64,000 nucleotides of DNA from Verrucomicrobiota bacterium (GTDB lineage: Bacteria > Verrucomicrobiota > Verrucomicrobiia > Methylacidiphilales > UBA1321): assembly GCA_013285645.1 (NCBI GenBank), contig JABDHJ010000012.1, forward strand, positions 1-64,000, written 5' to 3'. Position 1 is the first letter of the stretch. Each line of letters starts with the position of its first letter. Positions 25,957 to 62,796 of the stretch are shown one piece after another. The translations under genes and the position numbers were made by a program. The notes beneath the pieces were generated by a model that saw nothing but the letters and a program-made list of their open reading frames with translations, did no database searches and had not been told where the DNA came from.

Positions 25957-26012
25957 AACCAGTGACGAAATTTAAATATCGTCCGAGGCGTTCGCAAGAT
26001 GCCACCCTAAAA

Positions 26013-26072
26013 GTGCCCGAGGTGGGAGTCGAACCCACACGAGGGTTTCCCCTATCAGGATTTTAAGTCCTG
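26013..26072 (-). repeat. Displaced 3' fragment of tRNA-Leu (attL of the mobile element)
   Basis: Read on the minus strand this is the anticodon stem-loop, variable arm, T arm and acceptor 3' strand of a tRNA-Leu. The 17-bp core 26056-26072 equals 36482-36498 of the intact gene, and the 29-bp block 26013-26041 equals the 3' arm of that gene. The variable arm differs in sequence but still pairs (AGGG GAAA CCCT). The D arm and 5' acceptor strand are missing. It marks the left boundary of the integrated element. Confidence 0.88.
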
Positions 26073-26110
26073 CTTATACTACCTCTGATAGATAGCGATT
26101 TGCATTGACT

Positions 26111-26133
26111 AGTGACACGATGGTGACATGATA
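26111..26133. promoter_or_regulatory. Arm-type repeat, left end
   Basis: Twenty of 23 bases match the motif at 36338-36360. Each copy contains two GTGACA hexamers in direct orientation, about ten bases apart. Location just inside the element end and before the integrase gene suggests an integrase/excisionase arm site. It also overlaps the likely integrase promoter, so autoregulation is possible. Confidence 0.5.
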
Positions 26134-26140
26134 AGGGCCT

Positions 26141-27406
26141 ATGCCAGAAAAACCGGAAACAAAAGCGCGAAAACAACGCAGTCCATTTTACGCGAACGTG
26201 TTCAAGGACAAAACCCGGAAGAGCAAACCGTGGTGCCTCGACATCCATATCCGCTCCGAGGGCGGCAAGCGGCGCACCCGCACATTCTACGCACTGGAGC
26301 GCGAGGCCAAGGCGGCCGCCGTCGCCGCAAGGGAAGGCAATGTTAAAACAGGCCTAGCCTCGGCTGACATCTCCACCGCGCTCAGCACCGAGGCCATCAA
26401 AGCCGCCGCCATCCTCAACGGGCGCGGCTCCCTGGTCGAGGCCGCTGCCTATTTCATAAAGCATGCCTACCCCATCGGTGGGGAAATGAAGCTCAGCGAT
26501 GCCGTCGAAAAATATCGCGCATGGCAGGAAGCCGAAGGCGCATCCAAAGCCTACCTTAGCGACATGCGCTGGCGTTTGGCCAGATTGGTACGAGAACTCC
26601 CAGCAGGTATCAAAATGCCCGAGGTCAGTTGGCCCGTGCTGGCCAAATATCTCGGAGAACTGAAACTCAAACCAATCGGGCGACAAAACGAGATTCGGAA
26701 CATGCGCCCACTGTTCAACTGGGCAATCGACGAAAAACTCATTGCCAGCAATCCAATACCTTCCAAAGCCTTAGCCACTAGGAAGAAAGACCGTACCCAG
26801 GAAAAGTCCATCCGCATCCTGACGCTCGATGAAATCCAGCTACTCCTCGAACACGCAGGAGACTTCCTGCCGCATCTCATCTTCGGCTTATATTGCGGAG
26901 TGCGACCTGACGAAACAAAAGGCCTGGACTGGAAGGACGTGAACTGGGCGCAAATGCGCGTAACCGTTAACAACCGTGCAAGCGCCATGCACGACAGACG
27001 CACGATCCCAATCCCGCCAAATGCCCTTGCTTGGCTCCAACCTCATCGGGAAGCAACCGGCGAAGTTTCTTCACCCAAACACTACCTGACCCTGCTTCAC
27101 AAGGCAGGGAAGGCGGCTGGGCTATGCGAACCCTGCAAGATCATGAAGCCGGGTGACCCACCGAAAAAAAAGTGGCCTAAAGACTGTCTTCGCCACAGCT
27201 TCGCATCGTACTGGCTCGCCAAACACGACGACGAAACCCGTCTGAAATTCTTGATGGGCCATCACTGGGCCAGCCAGATGCTCCGCAAACACTACCTCGA
27301 CAGAGGCATCACGGCAGAGCAGGCTGAAGTGTACTGGAACCTCGTACCCAAAGCCCCCGCTAACGTCATACAAATGCCCAAGAAGCAGCCGAAATCCGGC
27401 ACGTAA
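26141..27406 (+). CDS. int: Tyrosine recombinase (integrase)
   Basis: 421 residues. Residues about 1-100 carry a basic arm-binding region (KPETKARKQRSPFYANVFKD), residues about 110-200 a SAM-like core-binding domain, and the rest the catalytic domain. Catalytic residues: R255 in GLYCGVRPDE, R351 in DCLRHSFASYW, H374 in LMGHHWASQM and nucleophile Y385 in RKHYLDRG. The usual His three residues before the second Arg is Asp here, a variation seen in some integrase groups. It lies 69 bp inside the left end, as expected for a tRNA-targeting integrase, and should catalyse insertion into and excision from tRNA-Leu. Confidence 0.92.
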   Translation: MPEKPETKARKQRSPFYANVFKDKTRKSKPWCLDIHIRSEGGKRRTRTFYALEREAKAAAVAAREGNVKTGLASADISTALSTEAIKAAAILNGRGSLVEAAAYFIKHAYPIGGEMKLSDAVEKYRAWQEAEGASKAYLSDMRWRLARLVRELPAGIKMPEVSWPVLAKYLGELKLKPIGRQNEIRNMRPLFNWAIDEKLIASNPIPSKALATRKKDRTQEKSIRILTLDEIQLLLEHAGDFLPHLIFGLYCGVRPDETKGLDWKDVNWAQMRVTVNNRASAMHDRRTIPIPPNALAWLQPHREATGEVSSPKHYLTLLHKAGKAAGLCEPCKIMKPGDPPKKKWPKDCLRHSFASYWLAKHDDETRLKFLMGHHWASQMLRKHYLDRGITAEQAEVYWNLVPKAPANVIQMPKKQPKSGT

Positions 27407-27494
27407 GGAAAACGGCACCTACACCAAGAACACAGCGCGGAAATGGCCAAACGCATGACTTTCAGCCTCACTCCAACCAAAGAGCCAGATAACG

Positions 27495-27662
27495 TCACGC
27501 CCATTTCAGTAGCGGCCTGAAGTCTAAGGTAGATTGAAACGCGTGCGCGGCCTTCATCGCCCACTGGCGGTATACCCACTGACGCGCGCGCCCAGATCCA
27601 CTGTTCGTCACGAATCGCGAGAGGGCTTTACTCCAGCGGGGGCTCGCCGCTACCGTATGCAT
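27495..27662 (-). CDS. Possible small basic protein in the integrase-cargo gap
   Basis: A 55-residue frame from ATG 27662 fills the only gap between integrase and the cargo lipoprotein, on the opposite strand. It is rich in Trp, Arg and Lys (SPRWSKALSRFV, ARQWVYRQWAMKAA) and looks more protein-like than either plus-strand frame here. No ribosome site is obvious and no family is recognised. It could be a chance frame. Confidence 0.3.
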   Translation of the reverse strand: MHTVAASPRWSKALSRFVTNSGSGRARQWVYRQWAMKAAHAFQSTLDFRPLLKWA

Positions 27663-27684
27663 TAAGTCGGCACCACAGAACTTT

Positions 27685-28296
27685 ATGACCCTGATAAAAC
27701 TACTTCTCTCGGTAGTTCTCTCCTTTTCCATGGCCAGTTGCAGTAGGGCCGATGATGATTTTAACGCTCCCTTAACCCTCCAAATCCCTAAATCCACCCC
27801 TGGCTATCAAGCCGACCCGACACACGAGAAGGGTGACGATGCCATTTATCAAACCCACGGCAAGCTCTTCTCGGAAGGGGCGAATGCCACCAAGCTGAGC
27901 GACCTGCCAGGCGCGACCGAACCCATGGCTACTTTTAAAGAAATAATCAACTCCTTTGGGACCAAAGACCCCGACGTTGTAAAAAAGTTCTACGATTCAG
28001 AAGGAGCCGCCGCCCTCACCAAGCTGACATCCGACCCGCAAATTAGGGCGAGGTGGGTAGCGGAAGCAGGGCGTATGGGCGGAGGAAATCTCGTTGCCGT
28101 CATCCAGATCGATACCGGCACCTACTATTTTCTGATTAAATATCCAAGTTCCCAAGGAACACTAGTGCCGGTTCCAGTTCTGATTCGGCGAGAGGGAAAC
28201 GCCTTTTTGGCCACGTCAGAAACGATTAGCGGTCAGATGATCCCGAATATCTTGATGTTTCTCTTTAATCAGCCCGCTGAGGCCCTTGCAAGGTAG
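27685..28296 (+). CDS. Exported lipoprotein of unknown function (element cargo)
   Basis: 203 residues. The N-terminus MTLIKLLLSVVLSFSMASCS ends in a lipobox-like M-A-S-C, predicting lipid anchoring at C19. The mature part has ATFKEIINSFGTKDPDVVKK, resembling the short helical opening of NTF2-like exported proteins, and a C-terminal beta region (TGTYYFLIKYPSSQGTLVPV). No family can be named. It is the first cargo gene after the integrase. Confidence 0.62.
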   Translation: MTLIKLLLSVVLSFSMASCSRADDDFNAPLTLQIPKSTPGYQADPTHEKGDDAIYQTHGKLFSEGANATKLSDLPGATEPMATFKEIINSFGTKDPDVVKKFYDSEGAAALTKLTSDPQIRARWVAEAGRMGGGNLVAVIQIDTGTYYFLIKYPSSQGTLVPVPVLIRREGNAFLATSETISGQMIPNILMFLFNQPAEALAR

Positions 28297-28386
28297 GCCT
28301 TCTCGGCATTGGTAATGGAACAACCGAGTGAAAAGTCCATGATCCCTAGTTGACTGCTAAGGGATCCGCCGCAGTATCGAATCGAC

Positions 28387-28761
28387 TTGAAAAACACTCT
28401 CCTTACCTCGGCCCTTGTGGCCATTCTGGGACTCGCTTCTGCTGGTACGCCCGTTATTGCGCAGACCCAAACCTCTACGACCTCGACGCCTTCCCCCGCC
28501 CCGGCTCGGGTTCTGAAGGCAAAGCCTACGAAATTCACTGGATTGATTACCGCCATTGATGCCATTTCGTTCACGGTCGCGAACACAGCGAAAACGCTAG
28601 CGGGGCAGACGCTGACCATAGTCATTGCACCCTCAACCACCTTCCAGAAGGATGGAGAGATGGCAACTCTGGCTGACTTTGCGGTGGGCGACAAAGCCAC
28701 TGGCGATTACAAGACGGATGCGACTGGTACGATGACGGCAGTCTCGCTTCGTAAGAAATAA
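28387..28761 (+). CDS. Exported small beta-rich protein (DUF5666-like)
   Basis: 124 residues from a TTG start. Signal peptide: MKNTLLTSALVAILGLASAG and a cut near AQT (residues 25-27). A Pro/Thr/Ser linker leads to a beta-rich domain (KFTGLITAIDAISFTVANTA ... FAVGDKATGDYKTDATGTMT) in which the F-x-G-x-I-x-x-I-D and D-F-x-V-G-D-K-x-x-x-x-Y motifs resemble DUF5666-type OB-like periplasmic domains. Function unknown. Same direction as the lipoprotein upstream. Confidence 0.6.
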   Translation: MKNTLLTSALVAILGLASAGTPVIAQTQTSTTSTPSPAPARVLKAKPTKFTGLITAIDAISFTVANTAKTLAGQTLTIVIAPSTTFQKDGEMATLADFAVGDKATGDYKTDATGTMTAVSLRKK

Positions 28762-28834
28762 AACAGTTAAAGCCGATCCGACAACATCGACCCCAAGCAG
28801 TGTATTAGGATCTTAGGTGGAATAGCGACGTTCA

Positions 28835-30130
28835 TTAAGTTATAAACCATAGAACGATCCCCTGTCCGAGCATCAAAAGTAAAAGAGGCCCCGCGACCTT
28901 CGCCTCTAGCGAATCTTTGCGAAAATAAGTCGTATGCCCCATCGTCACAGTGCCGCGGGGAGTGGATATACATATGGCAGCCAATAGAACAATGAACGAT
29001 AAGACCAAGGTTGAACTGACTAAGCGTTGAAAAACGCCTGGACGCAATCCGACCAAAAGCATCGCTTCCCGTGGATTTGTCGGCGAGAAATGAATCGGCA
29101 CCAAGCTTTGGACTGGAAACATGTTGACGACGCGCTGACTAGACCCATGAGTCCAAAACCAGTGCGGGTACACTTGGCTGCACTGATAAGGAATTCCGTT
29201 TATCGTGTAGGCGTAAGTGATGTCAGGAAAATTACCAGAAGACGAGCCCACAATTCTTCCTGTGGTGACGGGCCAATCCTTACTTGCGACGGCTTTTCTG
29301 ATATCGTTGATTCCATGTGAACTAATGACCAGCCCAACAATCAGACAAGGGATAAGCAACAGAAGTAGAAACATGGACTGGAAAGTCGCCGTCTTTACAG
29401 ATACCGGCACTGTTTGTTTCGGCTCCGAACCAGCAAAATTGTCAGGCCTTGGAAAAGCGCCTGTGCCCAAGGGAACTTCGTGACCGCCATAAATCGGGAC
29501 TTCGTATTTTTCCAAAAAAGAAACGCCACGAAAAGGGGCCTTGACGGTCAGACGCCAATGAATGCTATCGAATGGATTTTCGAGGGCGGTTTGCGGCTGC
29601 TCCACCGGGACTGCCATTGAGACGAGAAGAGTTCCGCCCGAGAGTAAGGTCGCCTTTTTCTCGGCAGACCAAAGCACCATTTCGCTGATACTGTTATGGT
29701 TGCCGGTGTTCACTACCACTCGGTGAATGCAGGCTAGCAGGAGCGTGAACTCGGGAGCATTGTCGGCCCTTGAGCGGATGGTAATTCGTCCGTCTATCGA
29801 TCCACCGAGGGGAATTGGAACTGCGTTAAGCTCTAGCACGGGATCGCCGAAGCGCTTCAATCGGAGGATTTGAAAAATTGCTCTGCACAATAGGAACAAG
29901 CAGACGCCGGGAAAAAACCAGAATAAGTAAAAGCCCAGGCCTGCACTATGGTCGGGATGCCTCACAAACCAGAAGAACATGAAGGAAGAGCCCAGAGCTA
30001 CGAGCCAAGTCCTGATGGCCGACACCTTTTCAATCCCCTTGACCTGATGGTTGGCCCAATCGTCCCGCGCGTTCCATTGCTCAGAAGAATTACGGACATT
30101 GTTCCCAATCGTATTTTTCCTGAACTTCAT
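28835..30130 (-). CDS. DUF3592-domain membrane protein
   Basis: 431 residues. Hydrophobic segments: about residues 40-58 and 66-84 near the N-terminus, 250-270 centrally, and two near the C-terminus (SSTLVLSFIVLLAAICIS and VAGPLLLLMLGQGIVLWF). After the central helix the domain WPVTTGRIVGSSSGNFPDIT, YAYTINGIPYQCSQVYP and VPIHFSPTNPREAMLLVG is a typical DUF3592 module. The large N-terminal extramembrane region (about 90-245) has a beta-rich look and no recognised family. Role unknown; cargo of the mobile element. Confidence 0.7.
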   Translation of the reverse strand: MKFRKNTIGNNVRNSSEQWNARDDWANHQVKGIEKVSAIRTWLVALGSSFMFFWFVRHPDHSAGLGFYLFWFFPGVCLFLLCRAIFQILRLKRFGDPVLELNAVPIPLGGSIDGRITIRSRADNAPEFTLLLACIHRVVVNTGNHNSISEMVLWSAEKKATLLSGGTLLVSMAVPVEQPQTALENPFDSIHWRLTVKAPFRGVSFLEKYEVPIYGGHEVPLGTGAFPRPDNFAGSEPKQTVPVSVKTATFQSMFLLLLLIPCLIVGLVISSHGINDIRKAVASKDWPVTTGRIVGSSSGNFPDITYAYTINGIPYQCSQVYPHWFWTHGSSQRVVNMFPVQSLVPIHFSPTNPREAMLLVGLRPGVFQRLVSSTLVLSFIVLLAAICISTPRGTVTMGHTTYFRKDSLEAKVAGPLLLLMLGQGIVLWFIT

Positions 30131-30176
30131 GGCGCTACTGTTTCTGTTCGGGTTTCGCTTTTAAAGTGAACATCCT

Positions 30177-30998
30177 TCAAGGAAAAACAATATCGTCAGC
30201 ACTCTTATTTCGATCGTTGAGCAAAAACGGGTGAATCGTGGGGTCTGCCTTGAGAATCCAAAGATAGTATCGATAGTCGTTGCCAATCTGCTGGGACGTT
30301 GCCGCCATTATATAATAGTCCCCCCCTGCCGGAGGTACGTTGATCGAGAAGTTACCGTTAGCATCGGTCTTTGTTTCGAGACTCTCTGGAGTCCTCACAG
30401 CCGATAACATATTGGTGTACCGGGACTGACTGGACCACACCAATTGTTTGAGCTTTAGAACATCCAGCAAGTTCGGATTCCAATGATAAGGTCGAGGGTA
30501 GCCGGGATTCGCTTGCGACTCATAACTCACCAAGGTGGCCAAGGATGCTCTTTCCCTGGGTGCAAGGTTGTTTACACCTTCAATCCACTGCTGGAGTTGT
30601 GTCTTCGTGTACAGGCCGATTTTGATGCCCGTGAGGCTGATCTGTTTCCCGTCGGCTGAGGTGACGGACGCCTGTCCAGATACGGATCGGGTAAACGATA
30701 GGCCCATGGCCTCAGTCGCGGCGGCTTCTGAACCTTTCGAGAGTGCCTCAAGCAAATGCAACTCTTCAAATTTCAATTTGGTCTGCTCGTCGTGGGTATC
30801 GGATAAAGCCTTTTCCAGTGCCGCGTTGGCTGGGGACAGTGTCTGCCCAACCACGGAAGGATTGCTCACAGAGTTTGTGCTGTTTGCGGAATCTGCATGA
30901 GAGCTGAGCTCTCCAAACACGAGCATTCCGGTTAGAATAATTACGATCGGGTTCGTGATCATAAACGAGGATACCATACTGACTGCACTAGCATCCAA
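30177..30998 (-). CDS. Exported protein with C-terminal carboxypeptidase-regulatory-like segment (cargo)
   Basis: 273 residues. A hydrophobic N-terminal segment (NPIVIILTGMLVFGELSSHA) suggests export. Residues about 55-95 are helical and charged; about 110-200 are unassigned; TPESLETKTDANGNFSINVP near residue 215 is the usual turn of a carboxypeptidase-regulatory (CNA-B-like) beta sandwich, followed by GGDYYIMAATSQQIGNDYRY. It lies 46 bp upstream of the DUF3592 gene on the same strand, so the two may work together at the envelope. The exact start (30998 or the ATG 12 codons in) is uncertain. Confidence 0.6.
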   Translation of the reverse strand: MDASAVSMVSSFMITNPIVIILTGMLVFGELSSHADSANSTNSVSNPSVVGQTLSPANAALEKALSDTHDEQTKLKFEELHLLEALSKGSEAAATEAMGLSFTRSVSGQASVTSADGKQISLTGIKIGLYTKTQLQQWIEGVNNLAPRERASLATLVSYESQANPGYPRPYHWNPNLLDVLKLKQLVWSSQSRYTNMLSAVRTPESLETKTDANGNFSINVPPAGGDYYIMAATSQQIGNDYRYYLWILKADPTIHPFLLNDRNKSADDIVFP

Positions 30999-31381
30999 GC
31001 AAGATGTTGCCGAGGTGATTTACGGCCACCCCTCGTAATAGTGGCCAGACATGGTTAGGCCAGCATTACATCGAGCCCTCTGAGGCTTCATGCTGCGCAG
31101 GCCGCCTACGCCACATCAAGCCGCACCAGTCGCGCCAGCTCCTCAGGCGCCCGGAACGTCAATCGCCGGGGTTCACTCAGGCGGTGCGGGGTGCCCGGTG
31201 CTGAGCATTCGACCCCGTCCTCTCGCCCAGCGTGTAACCTCGCTGCTCATGTCGTTCTCGACCTGCGGCAGCCTGTCACTCCCGTTGCAGGAAACGGGAT
31301 CACGGCCCTGGGGCCGCCAGAAATGAACCCCGGCGCTTTTGAGGGGTTCATTTTTCGCACCGAAATACCACCAACCCATGA
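30999..31381. other. Gap between cargo and mobilisation operon
   Basis: 383 bp with G+C-rich frames on both strands and no supported gene. A minus-strand frame 31173-31379 could start right after the preceding stop but runs through a perfect terminator-like hairpin. A transfer origin could lie here or upstream of the mobilisation operon; I cannot recognise one. Confidence 0.4.
31321..31355. terminator. Hairpin terminator after the mobilisation operon
   Basis: Perfect 11-bp stem (AAATGAACCCC with GGGGTTCATTT) with an 11-base loop. It lies about 30 bp after the last leftward gene. The T-run is stronger on the plus strand (TTTTT) than on the minus strand (TTT), so it may act both ways. Confidence 0.55.
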
Positions 31382-31849
31382 CTACCTCGCCTTGCTCCCG
31401 TCGAGCCCCATGGGATCCTCGCCCACTCTCCGCAAGGCAACCCGCCCCAAACCGCAAGACGCAGAAGACCGACGCATCGCACCACCGCCAACAGCAACCG
31501 AGGGCGGCGGCCTCTTCAAAATCTGCCCAGCGACAACCCCGTCCTTGGCCGTCAGGTGGTACACATCAACCGGCGGCGGCGAGGTCTCGCACAAATAGGC
31601 CCGTTCCTCCAACCACACCACATGCAAAGCTTCAACTGCCGCGACGAAAGCGGGATCATCGAGACCCTCAGCGACTTTCAACAGATAGATAGATCGCGTC
31701 CTCAAACCGGCGCTGCACCAGGACGGTGACCACACCGCCAAAAAGAGCTCAGCACCCATCTCCGCAGCGTCGTGAATGATCGCCCGGTCATCGTACCCAG
31801 GCAGGAAATAAATTTTACCGCAACGGTACAAAATTTCACTTTCAGTCAT
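31382..31849 (-). CDS. Hypothetical protein, last gene of the mobilisation operon
   Basis: 155 residues, no signal peptide, no recognised family. The N-terminal part is compact and protein-like (ILYRCGKIYFLPGYDDRAII, GAELFLAVWSPSWC, AFVAAVEALHVVWLEERAYL); the last 45 residues are low-complexity and basic. It follows the previous gene by 40 bp in the same direction. Confidence 0.5.
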   Translation of the reverse strand: MTESEILYRCGKIYFLPGYDDRAIIHDAAEMGAELFLAVWSPSWCSAGLRTRSIYLLKVAEGLDDPAFVAAVEALHVVWLEERAYLCETSPPPVDVYHLTAKDGVVAGQILKRPPPSVAVGGGAMRRSSASCGLGRVALRRVGEDPMGLDGSKAR

Positions 31850-31889
31850 AAAATGCGCCCAATCCTATCGGTCACAGAAATACACCTCA

Positions 31890-32378
31890 TCACGACTCCG
31901 ACGCTACGGGAGTAGCCGCGAATGGCAGCCAATCCAATTCGCCGAGAATGATTCCCATGCTGATCCGCAAGGGATCGAAGTCCTCCGGCACATCGACCCT
32001 CCAAACCCCGTCGGAGCGAGTACTCATCATGATCGTATGCGCCGCCACATCCGCTTCGAGCGCGGTCATTCCGCTTCCGTCCACGAAAAGCAACTTCCCG
32101 TCCTTCTCGACAACGATCCACCCCCCGAGACAGCCCTGGTACTTGCGCAGCCGCTTCTTTATCTCCTCCAAACCGAGGGCCTTCACCAATGCCGCCCGAT
32201 CGGCTGGCGGCCTCGCCGCCGCCGAGCTTGCCGCGCCCGTGCGCCCTGGCGGTGAGCTTGGCGAGGCTGCTGAGGCGACACCGCCGCCCCCCGACGATGA
32301 TGGAGGTGATGCGGCCTCGCTTATCGCGGCGGCCAACTCCAATTCTTCCGGCCCTGACGAGTTCATTGATTTGTTCAT
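31890..32378 (-). CDS. Hypothetical protein downstream of the relaxase
   Basis: 162 residues from ATG 32378, whose ATGA overlaps the relaxase-frame stop; an AAGGA lies about nine bases upstream. Residues about 1-60 are an Ala/Ser/Pro/Gly-rich disordered stretch, followed by a folded part (KALGLEEIKKRLRKYQGCLG, GWIVVEKDGKLLFVDGSGMT, ADVAAHTIMMSTRSDGVWRV, ISMGIILGELDWLPF). No family recognised. The tight coupling suggests an accessory role in mobilisation. Confidence 0.55.
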   Translation of the reverse strand: MNKSMNSSGPEELELAAAISEAASPPSSSGGGGVASAASPSSPPGRTGAASSAAARPPADRAALVKALGLEEIKKRLRKYQGCLGGWIVVEKDGKLLFVDGSGMTALEADVAAHTIMMSTRSDGVWRVDVPEDFDPLRISMGIILGELDWLPFAATPVASES

Positions 32379-32920
32379 GCGTTGCATTCCTTAGTTGAGA
32401 GAGAACCAGATTGTTTTCGGCGGCAGGATGAAGTTCCGCCGGCATCGGGCGAGAACGCCCAGCGCCACGGACCACAGCCTGAGCCCGCCCCGTAAAAGCC
32501 AGTGTACGCATGGCCTCGATGTCCCTGCGGGACCAGTGAAAGACACCTCCCGTCAGGGCCGCGCCGCGCCATGACTAAGTGAATATGCCCATGATCCGTG
32601 TCAGTGTGAGAAACAGCGACCCACGCCCGCCCATCCGCATAAATGCGCGCCCAATCCTGAGCTATCAAAACGAGCGCCTGGGTCACCTCCGGCGACGGTT
32701 TTTGATCGGAAGAAATAACAACGTGGCAGACCTCGGAACCCAAGCCGAAATCATCACACGATGCGGTAAAAATCGGGGCGTCAACGACGCTCACACCCGT
32801 AAAGACGCCGACCGGAGAATGACCACACATTGGAGTACCCTTCGCATAGACGTAGGCGAGCGAAGCCGCCGCCGATGACCGCTTCCCACGTAGCCGAACA
32901 ACCTTGCAAATCACCTTCAA
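32375..32920 (-). CDS. mob: Short HUH relaxase (MobP-like), possible frameshift
   Basis: Nicks DNA at oriT and leads the strand into the recipient. 181 residues from TTG 32920, overlapping the MobC-like stop. The relaxase three-histidine motif is WVAVSHTDTDHGHIHLVMAR (H-x-H plus an upstream His), preceded by SEVCHVVISSDQKPSPEV. The usual N-terminal Tyr motif is weak (SLAYVYAKG). After GPDGR the reading becomes Cys/Gly-rich and unlike a relaxase, while the next frame continues as VFHWSRRDIEAMRTLAFTGR; removing one G from the run near 32532 would join them. Yet the annotated frame ends in an ATGA overlap with the next gene. So either a frameshift or a genuinely short relaxase. Confidence 0.68.
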   Translation of the reverse strand: MKVICKVVRLRGKRSSAAASLAYVYAKGTPMCGHSPVGVFTGVSVVDAPIFTASCDDFGLGSEVCHVVISSDQKPSPEVTQALVLIAQDWARIYADGRAWVAVSHTDTDHGHIHLVMARRGPDGRCLSLVPQGHRGHAYTGFYGAGSGCGPWRWAFSPDAGGTSSCRRKQSGSLSTKECNA

Positions 32921-33312
32921 GCCGCCCCCCGCAGTCGTTCAATCAAATGCAATACCGCCAGAACCCGCGAAGCGTCCAAAACAACACCATCACGATGACA
33001 AATATGCAGGGCCTGATTCAAAAGAATCCCGGCACGGCGAAGCTCCTCCTGAACCGCAACCAACCGCACCAAATCCACCCCCACAAAAGCTGCCCCAAGC
33101 ACCAACGCCGCCACACGCCACCGCAACCGACGAGGCAGCTCAGCTAGGCGATCCGCCTGCGGCGGCGACAACTTCAACCGCACCCGGATTTCCCGAAGGG
33201 AATCGGAAACAGGGGGCGGGCAAGCCAGCCGTTTTGGGCCAAGCCCCAAAAACGACGCTTGCAAAGGGGCCGCTTCGCCGTCCCCCTTGACCCCCTTATG
33301 AGGCGTCGTCAT
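32917..33312 (-). CDS. MobC-like relaxosome accessory protein
   Basis: 131 residues from ATG 33312. The C-terminal half has the MobC pattern: VRLKLSPPQADRLAELPRRL, then EELRRAGILLNQALHICHRD, matching the usual (E/A)-L-R-R-x-G-x-x-L-N-Q. MobC proteins help the relaxase open and bind oriT. Its start lies inside the end of the gene before it and its stop overlaps the relaxase start. The N-terminus is basic and low in complexity. Confidence 0.68.
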   Translation of the reverse strand: MTTPHKGVKGDGEAAPLQASFLGLGPKRLACPPPVSDSLREIRVRLKLSPPQADRLAELPRRLRWRVAALVLGAAFVGVDLVRLVAVQEELRRAGILLNQALHICHRDGVVLDASRVLAVLHLIERLRGAA

Positions 33313-33577
33313 GACTGCCTCCTTCCGCCGCCGACGGCTCATACCCCACAACCCCAGCCAAGGGCGGCGCGGTCGCCGTCGCTGGCGCCACCGCCACAAA
33401 CACTGCCACCCGCTTCCGCGTCAAAGACGCGACGTAGGCATCGCCTGCCCTCGCGGCCTCAACGGCCCGCTCGGCTTCCAAACCATCTACCACCGACTGC
33501 GTCATTGGCCACAGGCCCAGCGAGCGTAGTTTGTGAACCAGATTCTTCGAGGACGACATCTTCATATCCACAAGCAT
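33296..33577 (-). CDS. Hypothetical small protein of the mobilisation operon
   Basis: 93 residues from MLVDMKMSSSKNLVHKLRSL; a second Met (KMSS) is possible. The N-terminal half is helical (VVDGLEAERAVEAARAGDAY) and the rest Ala/Pro-rich. No family recognised. Its 3' end overlaps the MobC-like start by 17 bp, which supports it as a translated gene. Confidence 0.5.
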   Translation of the reverse strand: MLVDMKMSSSKNLVHKLRSLGLWPMTQSVVDGLEAERAVEAARAGDAYVASLTRKRVAVFVAVAPATATAPPLAGVVGYEPSAAEGGSHDDAS

Positions 33578-33625
33578 GGGTACAAAGACGCCACCCCCGC
33601 AACTGTCCGGCCCCGTCCGGTGAAA

Positions 33626-33967
33626 TTAGTTCGTGGCCGCCACGCAAACCATATGAACGTGGCGACAGTCGCCCCGTTGGCGGAAGCCAGGGCAAGTGCA
33701 CCACGTGCGGAGTAGTGACCGCCAATGACGATGCGCACTTTTCGGGTGGCAGACGACGTGAGTGACGACGTGATCGGGTTCGCCTTGGCGGGGCAACCGT
33801 GCGACCACCCATGCGCCGTTTTGGCTAGAGGCTTCGACAATCCCGTACGTCTCATTGCGCTTACCTATTTGGGTTATGTAACGGCGTTTTCCGGGGATGG
33901 TTGCCACAACCTGCTGTAAAAGAGGCGGGATCGTGGGAATGTATGTTTGGGTGGGGGTAGGAGGCAT
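33626..33967 (-). CDS. SWIM-type zinc-finger small protein
   Basis: 113 residues, no signal peptide. The C-terminus carries CTCPGFRQRGDCRH with C90, C92, C101 and H103, fitting the C-x-C-x(n)-C-x-H SWIM zinc motif that binds DNA or proteins. The N-terminal part (RRYITQIGKRNETYGIVEAS) is beta-like. It is the first gene of the leftward mobilisation operon, 48 bp before the next, so a DNA-binding regulator or oriT-binding helper is a reasonable inference. Confidence 0.6.
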   Translation of the reverse strand: MPPTPTQTYIPTIPPLLQQVVATIPGKRRYITQIGKRNETYGIVEASSQNGAWVVARLPRQGEPDHVVTHVVCHPKSAHRHWRSLLRTWCTCPGFRQRGDCRHVHMVCVAATN

Positions 33968-34181
33968 ATGCGTCTTTCTTTCTTTGGTTGGTTTTACTGC
34001 GGGCGAGAAATTTTTATACGGCGTTACCGTTCCGGGGTTAGTGGGGCTTTTTGGATTTATTTTCGAGGCATTCCATGCCGATTATATCGCAATTTCGACT
34101 CATGGCGGCGACTCCGTGGGTGTTTCCGTGGAAATCTTTTCGCCTGCGGCTACCGCCTCAGGCGAACTTACGGCGTTATGA
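33939..34181 (+). CDS. Possible small membrane protein overlapping its neighbours
   Basis: 80 residues on the plus strand with two hydrophobic stretches (VWVGVGGICVFLSLVGFTAG and YGVTVPGLVGLFGFIFEAFH). It covers the gap between the SWIM gene and rep and overlaps both slightly. No ribosome site is evident. The clean membrane-protein look is the only support. Confidence 0.28.
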   Translation: MYVWVGVGGICVFLSLVGFTAGEKFLYGVTVPGLVGLFGFIFEAFHADYIAISTHGGDSVGVSVEIFSPAATASGELTAL

Positions 34182-35800
34182 TCCGAATGAAGCAGCCGGT
34201 GCGGAAGGCCATAAAAGCGCGCGCAAAGATTCCTCCAAAAATCTCTGATCGCCTTCTTCTTTTCCGCCGGGTTATACAAATGCTCCCAACCGCGATAGTC
34301 CAAGATTCGTGCGTGCAATAGCTCCAAAGCCCGACGGCGTTGAAACAGTTTTGAATGGCGCGGCAAGTCTGACCATTCAGTCGCAATGATCATACGGGGC
34401 TGACGTTTCCCTGACGTAGACCTTGCTGGGCGGGTTACGGTTATCAGCCTTACATCGGCGACCATACCGCCAGCGCCAGGGCACAGGAGGCCCTCGGGCC
34501 GCTTAAATAACCGTGAAGCGGAGGTTTCACCGAGCTCCTTTGACCGAGGTGGCAACTTAATCTTGCAATCGAGATACCTTCCTTCTCGCTTCCCGTGGTA
34601 ATCGTCGCCGAAGCGTCCAGTTTCGGGATTTGCCATTTTGGGTTCATCACTCTTCCACCGTAAAACAAAGGAGGGCTCACTTTGCCTGCTGCGCTGCTTG
34701 AGGCGAACGATAGCCCTCGCGGGTACGTTATGTTGTGGGTCACCTTTCAACGTGGTCCGGAGAGCCGCGAGGGTGCCGTAAGCCTCGATCAGGTGGGTGT
34801 AGTAACCCGCCACGGCCCACGCTGCTATTGCCTGCGGCGGCAAATCCAGCAGGGGTGATTCAGTTGGATTCCGCTTCTCGCGACCAAAATCCTCCTCGGT
34901 CAATTTCTGAGGCGCTTTAAGGATGTAGCGGGCACCTGCCCGACTAAGTTTTTCGACATGGACATAACCAACCCAACCCCGCCCTTCCATTGACTTACGC
35001 AAGCGCTCTAACCTCTTCCGCCACTCATCCTTTTTTAAGAAGCAGAGCACAGAAACGACGCAATGCGCGTGCAAATGAACCCAGACAGACCCGTCATCTT
35101 CAACGAAGAAGCAACCCTCCGTTTTCCGCAAGAGCGCAGTAAAATCCTCTTTCCCTGTTGCCCCCATAATCTGCGGATCACGCAGAACACGGCCAACATC
35201 ATTCTGAAATTTACGGAGAGTGGCGCGTAACCGCAAACCGGCATCAAGAGGTAAATCCCCAGGTGACCACAAGAGATGTCGCCCCGCATTGAATACAAAT
35301 TCCCGGGCACTCTGGCCACGCGCGCGAAACACGCTGAGGACGTAGGTTAACTGATCTTCTATCTCCCTCGTAACCCGCGAGACTACGGACGGAAAGAGCA
35401 TAAGTTTCCGCTTCACAACTGAAACGAGCACGTCTTCAAGGTTGAACAACGCTACAGAGAATACCCTAGTCTCACTCGCCACTTGCAAACACTGGGATTC
35501 CAGAACCGTAACTAGCCACTCCTCTACCTCCTCGCGACGCCGTGCCTCTGGGTCATCCGGCCTGCACACCTCCCCAATATGACGAAGCAGAGCTGCCTCT
35601 TGGGTTAACGTCTCTGGAAGTGGCAGGCCGTCCGAAGTGGCACGAGGAAGAGGAGCCTGTAACGGCGCGGTGTAGGTGCCGAAAAAGTGAACCTTGCAGC
35701 CGTCAACGAGGCCACTCTGGCCCGGATTGAGCACAACCGGATGATGAGTTATCTCAAGCGGCTTCATGTGAGCCGTCGAGAGAGAATGTTTTCTCGGCAT
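34100..35800 (-). CDS. rep: HUH-endonuclease replication protein (rolling-circle Rep-like)
   Basis: About 566 residues. The HUH metal motif is VWVHLHAHCVVSVLCFLKKD (H-x-H-x-x-V), followed by an EWRKRLERLRKSM helix and GWVGYVHVEKLSRAGARYIL, where a Tyr after the alpha helix is placed as in Rep-type nicking enzymes. Nicking by this residue would start strand-displacement replication. ATG 35800 has a GAGG six bases upstream, better than 35830. The long C-terminal part (SEPSFVLRWKSDEPKMANPE onward) has no family match. Replication of the excised circle is the likely role. Confidence 0.72.
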   Translation of the reverse strand: MPRKHSLSTAHMKPLEITHHPVVLNPGQSGLVDGCKVHFFGTYTAPLQAPLPRATSDGLPLPETLTQEAALLRHIGEVCRPDDPEARRREEVEEWLVTVLESQCLQVASETRVFSVALFNLEDVLVSVVKRKLMLFPSVVSRVTREIEDQLTYVLSVFRARGQSAREFVFNAGRHLLWSPGDLPLDAGLRLRATLRKFQNDVGRVLRDPQIMGATGKEDFTALLRKTEGCFFVEDDGSVWVHLHAHCVVSVLCFLKKDEWRKRLERLRKSMEGRGWVGYVHVEKLSRAGARYILKAPQKLTEEDFGREKRNPTESPLLDLPPQAIAAWAVAGYYTHLIEAYGTLAALRTTLKGDPQHNVPARAIVRLKQRSRQSEPSFVLRWKSDEPKMANPETGRFGDDYHGKREGRYLDCKIKLPPRSKELGETSASRLFKRPEGLLCPGAGGMVADVRLITVTRPARSTSGKRQPRMIIATEWSDLPRHSKLFQRRRALELLHARILDYRGWEHLYNPAEKKKAIRDFWRNLCARFYGLPHRLLHSDHNAVSSPEAVAAGEKISTETPTESPP

Positions 35801-35886
35801 AAGTAGCCTCGGAAGGGCTACCGCTGTCAACTTGACAAAAACGACAAACGCAACTAGGTTGCGCTTAGAAAATCAGTTAGCAGCGG

Positions 35887-35928
35887 AAGCGAAAAGCCTC
35901 TTCGGTTGAGCCCGAAGAGGCTTTTTTT
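35887..35928. terminator. Bidirectional hairpin terminator
   Basis: A 12-bp stem (AAGCCTCTTCGG with CCGAAGAGGCTT) and a 6-base loop, with T-runs on both strands. It lies just after the excisionase-like stop and separates it from rep. This is the clearest intrinsic terminator in the element. Confidence 0.85.
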
Positions 35929-35932
35929 CTTC

Positions 35933-36130
35933 TTAGAGAGGAGGTGGAACCTCTCCCTTTTTCAAACGCCGCCAACAGGCTTGAACATCGCCTCCGTCAA
36001 AAAGCACCAAGCGATGCTGCCTCCAAAATGGTTTTAACCATTCGGCCTTGACAAGCCTTCTTGCCAATTTTTCAGAGCGAAAAACTTCACTCAATTCGCC
36101 CGCCGTTACCGCCTTAAACTTACTAGCCAT
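35933..36130 (-). CDS. Excisionase-like small DNA-binding protein
   Basis: 65 residues, basic. The order VTAGELSEVFRSEKLARRLV followed by EWLKPFWRQHRLVLFDGGDV matches a winged-helix (MerR/Xis-like) layout: helix, turn, recognition helix, then a small wing. An AAAGG lies seven bases before the ATG. It sits near the right end of the element, as recombination directionality factors often do. The similarity is structural only. Confidence 0.5.
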   Translation of the reverse strand: MASKFKAVTAGELSEVFRSEKLARRLVKAEWLKPFWRQHRLVLFDGGDVQACWRRLKKGEVPPPL

Positions 36131-36150
36131 AAAGGAACCTTTCCTTTAAT

Positions 36151-36164
36151 CGAGGAGCTCCTCG
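36151..36164. promoter_or_regulatory. 14-bp palindrome before the excisionase-like gene
   Basis: CGAGGAGCTCCTCG is a perfect palindrome 21 bp upstream of the start. A second, imperfect dyad (AAAGGAA...TTTCCTTT, 36131-36147) covers the ribosome site. Either could be an operator; this is an inference from symmetry and position. Confidence 0.4.
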
Positions 36165-36439
36165 TTGAGGCCAGCTAACATATCTGCGGCGAAGACAACC
36201 GATCGGCGAACCGCTAAGCGTGCCGGGGCTACCAGGGGTCTCGGGGTTACCCGCTCCCATCTCTGGTAAGGCAACTCTAAAGGCACTACACCCAAAAGTC
36301 AATCAAAGTACGCGTCGAAGGCCTCATAGACGGATTAAGTGACACAATAGTGACAAGATAGATGCCTGTCGTTGTCCTGCGTAGACCGACCTAGTCCGAC
36401 CGGCTTTTCCCCACTAAATTTTTTTACCTCTGAAAAAGG
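36165..36439. other. Right-end non-coding region of the element
   Basis: About 275 bp without a supported frame. It contains the arm-type motif copy at 36338-36360 and a T-rich stretch (36419-36425) just outside the tRNA 3' end, which may terminate tRNA transcription. Confidence 0.5.
36338..36360. promoter_or_regulatory. Arm-type repeat, right end
   Basis: Twenty of 23 bases equal to 26111-26133 and in the same orientation, with two GTGACA hexamers. It lies about 120 bp inside the right att core, a usual distance for integrase arm or excisionase sites. Confidence 0.5.
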
Positions 36440-36524
36440 TGCCCGAGGTGGGAGTCGAACCCACACGGGGATTTCTCCCCTCAGGATTTTAAGTCCTGTA
36501 TGTCTGCCATTCCATCACTCGGGC
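36440..36524 (-). tRNA. tRNA-Leu (anticodon UAA)
   Basis: 85 nt, class II. The acceptor stem GCCCGAG pairs with CTCGGGC; the discriminator is A and CCA is not encoded. The anticodon stem CAGGA/TCCTG encloses CTTAAAA, giving anticodon UAA. A long variable arm (GGGG...CCCC) and the T arm GTGGGTTCGACTCCCAC complete it. The 3' part (from the anticodon loop or T arm on) was probably supplied by the mobile element and the 5' part by the host, since the displaced copy at 26013-26072 has another variable arm. Confidence 0.96.
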
Positions 36525-44497: not shown

Positions 44498-45184
44498 CTA
44501 GTTTTTCCGCTGGTAACCGCCGTTGTGCACCACCACCGTGATTCCCTTGCTCTCCGCGTTAAGCGTGATGTCGGCAGGATACGACGTTCCGTTGTCCAAC
44601 TGCCCCATGACGGCGCTCATCTTCACCACGTCGCTGGGATCGTTCACATAAGTTTTCACGTTCAGGCCCACCGGACGGTTGTCCATCAGGTTCACTTCCA
44701 CGCTGTAGGTATCGCCCGCTTTTAGATAGCTCTGAAAAACGATACGGATGCGTCCGCCACCCACTTTTTGCATCGACACATTCCCGGCATCCTTCGCCGC
44801 TTGGATCAAAGACGGATTCGGCGGCACATAGCTCTTCACCAAGCTCACCGCGCTCTTCATGTAATCCATCATTTCTTGCTTCTTTTCTTCCTTGATCCGT
44901 CGGAAAAGCAGACCACCCTGCTGTTGCGGAGCCGTCGTATCGCTGATCACCACTTTCTGCAGCGAGCCATCATCGCCATAATAGCACCGCTCCTGCTTGG
45001 TCGACTTCACGTCGCCGTTCATGCTAACCGTGGTCGTCTGGATCCATTGGTACTGCTTTAAAATGATCTTGTTCGTGGCCACACTGGCCTTGAGCGCGGC
45101 GATCCGTTCCTTGGCCGAATCCTGGGCCTGCGCAAGGCCGGAAAACAACAGCGTGGTAAAAGCAATGAATGTAATAAGTTTCAT
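44498..45184 (-). CDS. Exported protein of unknown function
   Basis: 228 residues. Signal MKLITFIAFTTLLFSGLAQA. The mature part is mostly soluble: KERIAALKASVATNKIILKQ, YQWIQTTTVSMNGDVKSTKQ, a charged helix (RRIKEEKKQEMMDYMKSAVS) and a beta-rich C-terminus (GRIRIVFQSYLKAGDTYSVE ... TLNAESKGITVVVHNGGYQR). No family recognised. ATG 45184 is preferred over 45193. It is 9 bp before the FGE-like gene and leads the operon, so it probably acts in the periplasm. Confidence 0.65.
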   Translation of the reverse strand: MKLITFIAFTTLLFSGLAQAQDSAKERIAALKASVATNKIILKQYQWIQTTTVSMNGDVKSTKQERCYYGDDGSLQKVVISDTTAPQQQGGLLFRRIKEEKKQEMMDYMKSAVSLVKSYVPPNPSLIQAAKDAGNVSMQKVGGGRIRIVFQSYLKAGDTYSVEVNLMDNRPVGLNVKTYVNDPSDVVKMSAVMGQLDNGTSYPADITLNAESKGITVVVHNGGYQRKN

Positions 45185-49842: not shown

Positions 49843-50322
49843 AATTAGCGCGAAGAACAAGGGGCCGTTCCCAAGCTCCTGCGGAGGACAGCAAACTTGG
49901 GAACGAGGAACCGGCCCGGACGGAGCCGGGTCCTCGAAGAAGACACTACCGTCTAGTATTCCGTACCATTGTAACATTCGTATTAAAATCAGTTCGTCAT
50001 CCTGAGCTTGTCGAAGGATCAGCGTCCGGAAAATGACCACGATTGGCGCGGGCTTCCTTTTGCCAATTCTACCTCTGAAATTCGCCTGCTTCCCGAGGTT
50101 TTCCGCGATCGGTTGAATTCACTTGAAGCTGATCTTTCGACAAGCTCAAGATGACGGAATTTTTTATGTGTTATTTCAAGGGTTACAGCGTACTAGGGCC
50201 TGTTAATACTATTGCTATTCGCTCTGTCCCTCCGGGACGACACTATTTGCTTCTCTCGGAGTTCGACGAGCGCCCCTTAGTTAATGTTAACAGGCCCTAG
50301 TGTGCGACGGCTACCAGCGAAA
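49843..50322. repeat. Intergenic repeats including a MITE-like element
   Basis: No gene. Holds a CGTTCCCAAG palindrome with a nested insertion (49866-49905), an inverted pair of the CTGAGCTTGTCGAAGGATC repeat (49995-50023 and 50128-50156) and the MITE-like element at 50194-50299. Confidence 0.8.
50194..50299. mobile_element. MITE-like element with TA duplication
   Basis: 106 bp including the flanking TA. Terminal inverted repeats GGGCCTGTTAA (50196-50206) and TTAACAGGCCC (50287-50297) are perfect over 11 bp and are bordered by TA on both sides, as for IS630/Tc1-mariner type insertions. The interior is too short for a gene. No transposase is seen in the window. Confidence 0.65.
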
Positions 50323-59111: not shown

Positions 59112-59953
59112 CTGAATTTTGACGGAATTACCAAATTTCTCCAAATTTACGGAATTTTGACAGGGGAACATGAGGGAAGACAGGGGAGTTTTTGGACAGG
59201 ATTAACAGGATTGGGGACGATCCCTCTTCCTTATTCGTCATCCTGAGCTTGTCAAGGGATCAGCTTCCATTGGCTTTCACCTAATCTGTCAATATCCGCA
59301 CCTGCTTCAGGCCGCGATATCGTCCGTCATAATCGAGGCCGTAGCCGACGACGAAATGGTTGGGGATCTTGAAGCCGATCCAATTGGCGTGGAGGGGGAC
59401 TTCCTGTTTGCCGCGTTTTTGGAGGAGGACGCAGATTTTCACATCGGCGGCGCCGAGCTTTTTCAGGCGCGCGACGAGGGCAGAGAGGGTGCGTCCGGTG
59501 TCGAGGATGTCATCGACGATGAGGACGTGGCGGCCTGCGATTGAATCGTCGAGGGCATCGAGGCCGAGGATCTTGCCGGTGCTGTTTGTCCCGGCATAAC
59601 TGGCGAGGCGGACACAGGAGATTTCGGTCTCGTCGAGATCGATGGCGCGGACCAAATCGGCGAGGAAAAAGAGCGCCCCGTTCATCACGCCGAGGAAGAT
59701 CGGTCGCTTGCCGCGATAATGGCGCGTGAGACTCTTGCCCAGTTGCTGGACGCGCGCGCGGATTTGCGTCTGCGTGAGGAGAACACGGCCCGGCGTCATG
59801 GCCCAAGCAAAGAGCGGAACTGATCCTTCGACAAGCTCAGGATGACGGATCGGCCATGAAAAAATGTGTGCTCCTCCTGTTTTCATCCTTTCATGTCCTC
59901 CCGTTAAAAATTCCGTAAATTTGGAGAAATTTGGTAATTCCGTCAAAATTCAG
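59112..59953. repeat. Perfect 47-bp inverted repeats enclosing hpt
   Basis: 59112-59158 and 59907-59953 are exact reverse complements (47 of 47). Inside them, a shorter inverted pair of the CTGAGCTTGTC...GGATCAG repeat lies at 59236-59265 and 59819-59847. The unit between them is about 750 bp and holds hpt. A related half is at 6776-6790. Perfect identity suggests recent origin or active homogenisation. Confidence 0.9.
59281..59799 (-). CDS. hpt: Hypoxanthine phosphoribosyltransferase
   Basis: 172 residues, normal length. Salvages hypoxanthine/guanine with PRPP. The PRPP loop is HVLIVDDILDTGRTLSALVA; the flexible loop region is CVRLASYAGTNSTGK; IGFKIPNHFVVGYGLDYDGR is the purine-binding end. 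ATG 59799 is used because codons beyond 59810 are repeat-encoded (RHPELVEGS is the translation of the repeat). Flanked by perfect inverted repeats. Confidence 0.93.
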   Translation of the reverse strand: MTPGRVLLTQTQIRARVQQLGKSLTRHYRGKRPIFLGVMNGALFFLADLVRAIDLDETEISCVRLASYAGTNSTGKILGLDALDDSIAGRHVLIVDDILDTGRTLSALVARLKKLGAADVKICVLLQKRGKQEVPLHANWIGFKIPNHFVVGYGLDYDGRYRGLKQVRILTD

Positions 59954-62385: not shown

Positions 62386-62796
62386 CCCATTTCCCCTCGT
62401 TCCCTGAAAGGGCGGCCCAAAATGATGATCAGATTAGGTCGCCCTTTCAGGGCTTCTCTCGCTTTTCCACCTACCCAGGGCGTTGCCCTGGGCTGAGATT
62501 AGATCGCCCCGTTGGAGATCTCTGCGAAAGTCTTTCTTCAAGCAATCCGTCATCTTGAATTTGTCGCACACAATGTGGCAAGATCAGTTCTGTACCTCTG
62601 AGAAAAGGCAGACCGAACTGATCCTTCGACAAGCTCAGGATGACTAATGCTAAATGTGAGAGTTTCGCAGAGATCCCCGTTGGGGCTGAAGGAATTCCGC
62701 TGGTTGACTCCGTGTTTAGTGTGAAATTTCGCGGTGAACAGGAGGCATTCCCAAATAAAATTTGGGAACGAGGGGATTAGAGAGAGTGTGTGTGAG
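62386..62796. repeat. Intergenic repeat cluster
   Basis: About 410 bp without a gene. GAAAGGGCG/CGCCCTTTC and CCAGGGC/GCCCTGG hairpins at 62405-62493; an inverted pair around GCAGAGATC at 62505-62530 and 62661-62690; the CTTGTCGAAGGATC pair at 62548-62587 and 62618-62644; and a degenerate CGTTCCCAAG palindrome at 62746-62770. Together they look like overlapping insertions of short repeats. Confidence 0.75.

Follow-up and report, generated by a model that had tools for sequence, protein, structure and literature searches.

Canonical integrative mobilisable elements (IMEs) encode their own integrase and their own canonical-type relaxase, and they have no coupling protein or mating-pair genes (PMC5704250). 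One of them, NBU1 of Bacteroides, uses the 3′ end of tRNA-Leu, and several IMEs have their own Rep (PMC5704250). Here we describe a 10.4-kb stretch at positions 26,013 to 36,524 of a 64,000-nt window, the whole piece of DNA analysed, from a Verrucomicrobiota bacterium (contig JABDHJ010000012.1). This stretch is very probably an integrated canonical IME, whose integrase would bind inner repeats close to both ends, which would excise as a circle of 10,426 bp and depend on a helper for transfer, and whose relaxase gene is split in this copy. The source genome (G000) is a metagenome-assembled genome (MAG) of 3.18 Mb in 100 contigs that is 66% complete. Like canonical IMEs such as NBU1, the element combines a tyrosine integrase, a tRNA target and a canonical-type relaxase gene with a lack of coupling-protein and mating-pair genes, the likeness to NBU1 being drawn from its description; it differs from them in that only a fragment of its relaxase resembles plasmid relaxases.

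The only tRNA gene in the window, identified with ARAGORN and Rfam, is an intact tRNA-Leu(UAA) at the right end of the element. A direct repeat of 64 nt with 91% identity (26009-26072 and 36435-36498, spacing 10,426 bp) places a displaced 3′ copy of this gene at the left end. The repeated part starts on the 5′ side of the anticodon stem, takes in the rest of the tRNA and extends 3-4 nt past its 3′ end; the two attachment (att) copies share an identical block of 29 nt (26013-26041). All differences between them fall into the variable arm, except one just past the tRNA 3′ end. In the displaced copy, read by eye, pairing within the variable arm is still possible (AGGG-GAAA-CCCT), and because of this the copy looks like another tRNA-Leu allele more than like a product of random change. 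Over 92 nt the intact tRNA has the same sequence as its counterpart in a same-genus genome; this points to the intact copy as the native arm, without proving it. Taken alone, the left copy is not called as a tRNA. Recombining the repeats in silico joined the outer flanks into one complete tRNA-Leu(taa), with the crossover in the T arm or in the anticodon loop alike, and no tRNA was called at the junction of the predicted circle. The 64-nt repeat, the inner repeats described below and the restored tRNA point to a specific integration site with direct att repeats. An earlier note on this DNA had described the intact tRNA, the displaced fragment and an integrase just inside the element, all of which were borne out, and its proposed circle of about 10.4 kb is supported by the repeat spacing and by the in silico joining; the inner repeats and the relaxase frameshift are additions to that note.

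Just inside both ends of the element lie two copies of a direct repeat with the pattern AGTGACACRATRGTGACAWGATA, both in the same orientation (left copy AGTGACACGATGGTGACATGATA, right copy AGTGACACAATAGTGACAAGATA), at distances of 38 and 74 bp from the att copies. The degenerate pattern has two matches in the window, only these, and none in 100 shuffles; it was built from both copies, and the BLAST E value of the pair (0.005) is the less biased figure. A second element in the same genome, on contig C2, has a weaker repeat (GGTGCCAACTAGCTGCCA and GGTGCCAACCTGCTGCCA, E=0.13) 41 and 78 bp from its att copies, and the related element L080 has a perfect 19-nt repeat, TGGCAACAACTTGGCAACA, just inside both ends. 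The inner repeats of these three elements are probably integrase arm sites. The integrase gene itself is intact and reads inward from the tRNA fragment. Its product stays just under the cut-off for PF00589 (25.1 bits, E=1.7e-5, cut-off 27.1); the PHROG match, the open frame and the conserved catalytic positions (R, R-H and Y) point to a site-specific integrase of the element's own.

The second hallmark of the element is a MobC-like gene followed by a relaxase gene. The N-terminal part of the relaxase matches PF03432 above the cut-off and carries an HxDxxHxHxH-type motif; the C-terminal part lies in the next reading frame and is 36% identical to the relaxase of the related element L062, which aligns across both window frames. 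A codon-usage scan showed that the preferred frame switches near 32545. Since the profile match is split over two frames and the codon scan changes frame, the relaxase is judged to be split by a frameshift near 32545 in the present assembly, either through a true loss of the relaxase in this copy or through an assembly indel. The window element and L062 share the nuclease domain of the MobA/VirD2-type family PF03432 above the cut-off; they differ from that family in the short protein (intact relaxases have 274-398 aa in most relatives, 556 aa in L080), and no NCBIfam MobP subfamily matched at its curated cut-off. Only a fragment of the relaxase resembles plasmid relaxases; the matches come from 12 sphingomonad plasmids and cover 36-52% of the query at about 32-41% identity.

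A relaxase in two frames would also be expected of a decayed genomic island, that is, an old IME with a dead transfer module, left as an immobile remnant with membrane and unknown cargo genes. This is a possibility, although we do not consider it probable. It would fit the difference of about 9% between the two tRNA copies and a 576-aa orphan gene of which a search of 59 other related genomes found no copy. However, the reading frames of the integrase, MobC-like and 576-aa genes are uninterrupted, both inner repeat copies survive, and the displaced variable arm still pairs, so that the 9% difference can be allelic; moreover, a single MAG cannot tell a lesion from an assembly error.

The same 576-aa protein had been called a HUH Rep in the earlier note, a label for which we found no support. 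It matched nothing in Pfam, NCBIfam, PHROGs, PDB sequences, plasmids, phages, two contig collections and 388 genomes of the phylum; the suspicion derives from one HLHAH motif, and the AlphaFold2 (AF2) model has a predicted local distance difference test (pLDDT) score of 33.7, too poor to use. The excisionase label given to a 65-aa open reading frame (ORF) fared no better: family searches were empty, and a fold search with its AF2 model (mean pLDDT 63.5) gave no match. The MobC-like gene, by contrast, was upheld by alignment with the MobC-like proteins of relatives, of which that of L062 has a weak match to PF05713 (MobC). The HUH relaxase stands as a PF03432 protein, but the split of its frame had been missed. 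No conjugation apparatus had been seen, and indeed no coupling protein, mating-pair or other transfer-apparatus genes were found among the scanned ORFs of the element. Relatives of the same architecture, in other tRNAs and in the same genome, strengthen the reading as an integrated element, but mobilisation by the element's own relaxase became doubtful with the frameshift. It is conceivable, although rather doubtful, that the 576-aa orphan is the founding member of a new family of HUH replication initiators. This would make the element plasmid-like and integrative, with one HUH enzyme for replication and another for transfer, and its family would be spread over a bacterial class for which no IME family has been named.

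Related elements occur in at least four other genomes, in addition to the second one in the same genome, and the MobC-like/relaxase pair is common to all. In the window and in loci L050, L062, L064, L080, L081 and L082 the relaxase gene comes directly after the MobC-like gene and overlaps or abuts it. Where both ends were seen (four elements), 63-123 bp separate the displaced tRNA piece from the start of the integrase gene, which is directed inward; the targets of the four same-layout elements are tRNA-Leu, tRNA-Gly (twice) and tRNA-Thr. L050, on contig C2 of the same genome, holds integrase, SWIM-like, MobC-like and relaxase genes in one unit, and a tblastx-similar counterpart of the 113-aa SWIM-like protein of the window stands beside mobC there. 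L062 comes from another family of the order and occupies 6.4 kb in tRNA-Gly(GCC). It contains mobC and the genes for an AAA_25 protein and for a relaxase of 317 aa, whose PF03432 nuclease domain passes the curated cut-off, and its integrase gene adjoins the tRNA fragment. L080, in a single-contig genome of a third family, is an 11.5-kb unit in tRNA-Thr(CGU). In L064, integrase, relaxase and mobC lie at a contig end with cargo that by eye is of restriction type; the mobC-relaxase pair is also present in L081 and L082, which belong to further families of the class. L050, L062 and L080 resemble the window element in the tyrosine integrase adjoining a displaced tRNA piece. The relatives differ from it in their tRNAs (Gly, Thr), their replication-type genes (a 675-aa protein, the AAA_25 protein) and their cargo, and L080 displaces the 5′ half of its tRNA, whereas the window element displaces the 3′ half.

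A relaxase profile built from six members matched 11 of the 384 class genomes, and six of these matches are the members themselves. Outside the profile, one genome (G532) gave a strong match (E=1.7e-28) near tRNA-Leu(UAG) and integrases, and the remaining four matches were weak (E about 2e-4 to 7e-4). Scans of the contig collections with the 576-aa protein and the relaxases gave no matches. Locus L063 (G028) was dropped as a relative, as it carries flagellar-type genes and its relaxase match looks like chance in a GC-rich frame. Broad tblastx matches in GC-rich loci were regarded as low-complexity noise, and only the mobC and relaxase matches were kept. In the source genome, an integrase of the same broad family adjoins a tmRNA gene (L053, G000:C11:78380-80000), likely a further island.

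On contig C2, displaced 3′ pieces of tRNA-Gly(GCC) of 27-31 nt at 44854 and 66686 bound the L050 unit, and the intact tRNA-Gly lies at about 98062; we read C2:44854-98062 (L050, L068 and L069) as a tandem of two islands at a single tRNA-Gly(GCC). The first of them carries the relaxase family with EVE-domain, DUF5131 and DUF3800 genes, and a HipAB-like pair lies just outside. Such tandem accretion, seen on C2 with its three tRNA-Gly copies and suspected in L062, could in principle have merged two neighbours in the window as well: an integrase-only island at the tRNA fragment and a mobilisable element at the intact tRNA. The G+C content, which falls to about 50% within the middle cargo genes (28500-30500), would fit this. 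We consider it unlikely, as no third att copy is present between 26072 and 36435, the matching inner repeats bracket the entire unit, and relatives such as L062 hold integrase and mob genes in one att-bounded unit. More improbable still is that the element is a defective satellite, or what remains of a prophage, with an integrase of phage type: the integrase does match PHROG integrase families, but there are no structural phage genes, PHROGs gave nothing significant for the other scanned ORFs, and the PF03432 relaxase is paired with a MobC-like protein.

The same tRNA gene was also followed in relatives. In two same-genus genomes (L043:13816-13853 and L040:12643-12697) tRNA-Leu(UAA) breaks off at the anticodon, and its 5′ half runs into unrelated sequence; this hints at other elements that use this tRNA and displace its 5′ half. 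In L039 (G003:C104), the intact tRNA-Leu(UAA) gene (57-143) has a 3′ piece of 28 nt 2.3 kb downstream of it, at 2385-2412; the stretch between them contains SDR-type and TetR-type genes and no integrase, and the piece is perhaps an old insertion scar.

The features of the element are listed in the table. The four cargo genes between 27685 and 30998 yielded nothing informative beyond DUF3592. On the minus strand, the C-terminal frame of the relaxase (31846-32511) overlaps the 165-aa ORF (31890-32387) in a different reading frame, and below about 32200 codon usage speaks for the 165-aa ORF. Outside the element, a dispersed palindrome-like repeat, CTGATCCTTCGACAAGCTCAGGATGAC, and its complement occur in the window at 49993-50022, 59814-59846 and 62582-62647; the repeat is also present in a same-genus genome (L037:10537-10621).

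Table. Features of the element in tRNA-Leu(UAA), in window coordinates.
Feature	Position	Strand	Evidence
Displaced 3′ tRNA-Leu copy, other att copy	26009..26072	-	64-nt direct repeat, 91%
Inner direct repeat, left copy, 23 nt	26111..26133	+	probable integrase arm site
Tyrosine integrase, 421 aa	26141..27406	+	phrog_1 E=1e-31
Cargo, 203-aa ORF, lipoprotein-like N-terminus	27685..28296	+	no Pfam match
Cargo, 124-aa protein, weak DUF5666	28387..28761	+	PF18914 E=2.7e-4, under cut-off
Cargo, 431-aa protein with DUF3592	28835..30130	-	PF12158 31.3 bits, cut-off 25.3
Cargo, 273-aa protein	30177..30998	-	sub-threshold Pfam matches only
155-aa ORF	31382..31849	-	codon scan prefers this coding frame; no family
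165-aa ORF, overlaps relaxase C-terminal frame	31890..32387	-	codon scan prefers this frame at 31902-32198
Relaxase C-terminal part, next reading frame	32200..32550	-	A4 profile positions 159-282, E=4e-11
Relaxase N-terminal part, before frameshift	32375..32920	-	PF03432 34.3 bits, cut-off 24.6; A4 profile positions 88-167
MobC-like relaxosome accessory protein	32917..33399	-	38/98 identity to L062 protein
93-aa ORF upstream of mobC	33296..33577	-	coding frame preferred; sub-threshold matches only
113-aa protein, SWIM-like C-C-C-H motif	33626..33967	-	PF04434 E=0.016, sub-threshold
576-aa orphan, suspected HUH replication initiator	34100..35830	-	HLHAH motif only
65-aa ORF, suspected excisionase-type DNA-binding protein	35933..36130	-	likeness by eye only
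Inner direct repeat, right copy, 23 nt	36338..36360	+	probable integrase arm site
Intact tRNA-Leu(UAA), target gene, 3′ part is one att copy	36438..36524	-	ARAGORN; Rfam RF00005 58.7 bits

As a canonical IME, the element would work as follows. The integrase would bind the inner repeats and recombine the DNA at the tRNA-derived core, probably in the anticodon stem-loop or the T arm, which would release the 10,426-bp circle and restore a single tRNA-Leu. The relaxase and its MobC-like partner would nick a putative oriT, and the strand would leave through the type IV secretion system of a helper; the 576-aa protein may replicate the circle. VirB4 homologues are present in two same-genus genomes, one over the curated cut-off and one just under it. 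In this copy excision and integration are probably still possible, and transfer would need the relaxase of another copy, for which the second element on contig C2 is a possible donor in trans, or else the copy would be transfer-defective.

Several points weigh against this interpretation. Neither an empty site nor the circle was found in a search of relatives with the flanks, where none keeps the neighbouring genes; flanking synteny is lost in the compared loci, and relatives carry tRNA-Leu(UAA) free of a displaced 3′ copy in the retrieved stretch, but with other flanks. VirB4 was not found in the element's own, 66%-complete genome, and no oriT was located, although no search aimed at it was made. 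The relaxase is split, and therefore this copy may not mobilise itself with its own relaxase; equally, the frameshift could be an assembly error and not a real lesion, which a single MAG cannot separate. Finally, the replication-initiator and excisionase labels are unproven.

The earlier note had regarded the element as undescribed. This holds for the family, which appears to be unnamed because plasmid relaxases match a short stretch only, no plasmid matched the element at useful coverage, and the literature searched for Verrucomicrobiota contained no paper on such elements. It does not hold for the kind of element, since canonical IMEs are well known (PMC5704250). The finding gives this bacterial group a mobilisable element with precise boundaries and, in the MobC-like/relaxase pair, a recognisable signature. 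Its att and probable arm sites are ready targets for excision tests, and the element shows a possible route by which DNA may move between these mostly uncultured species.

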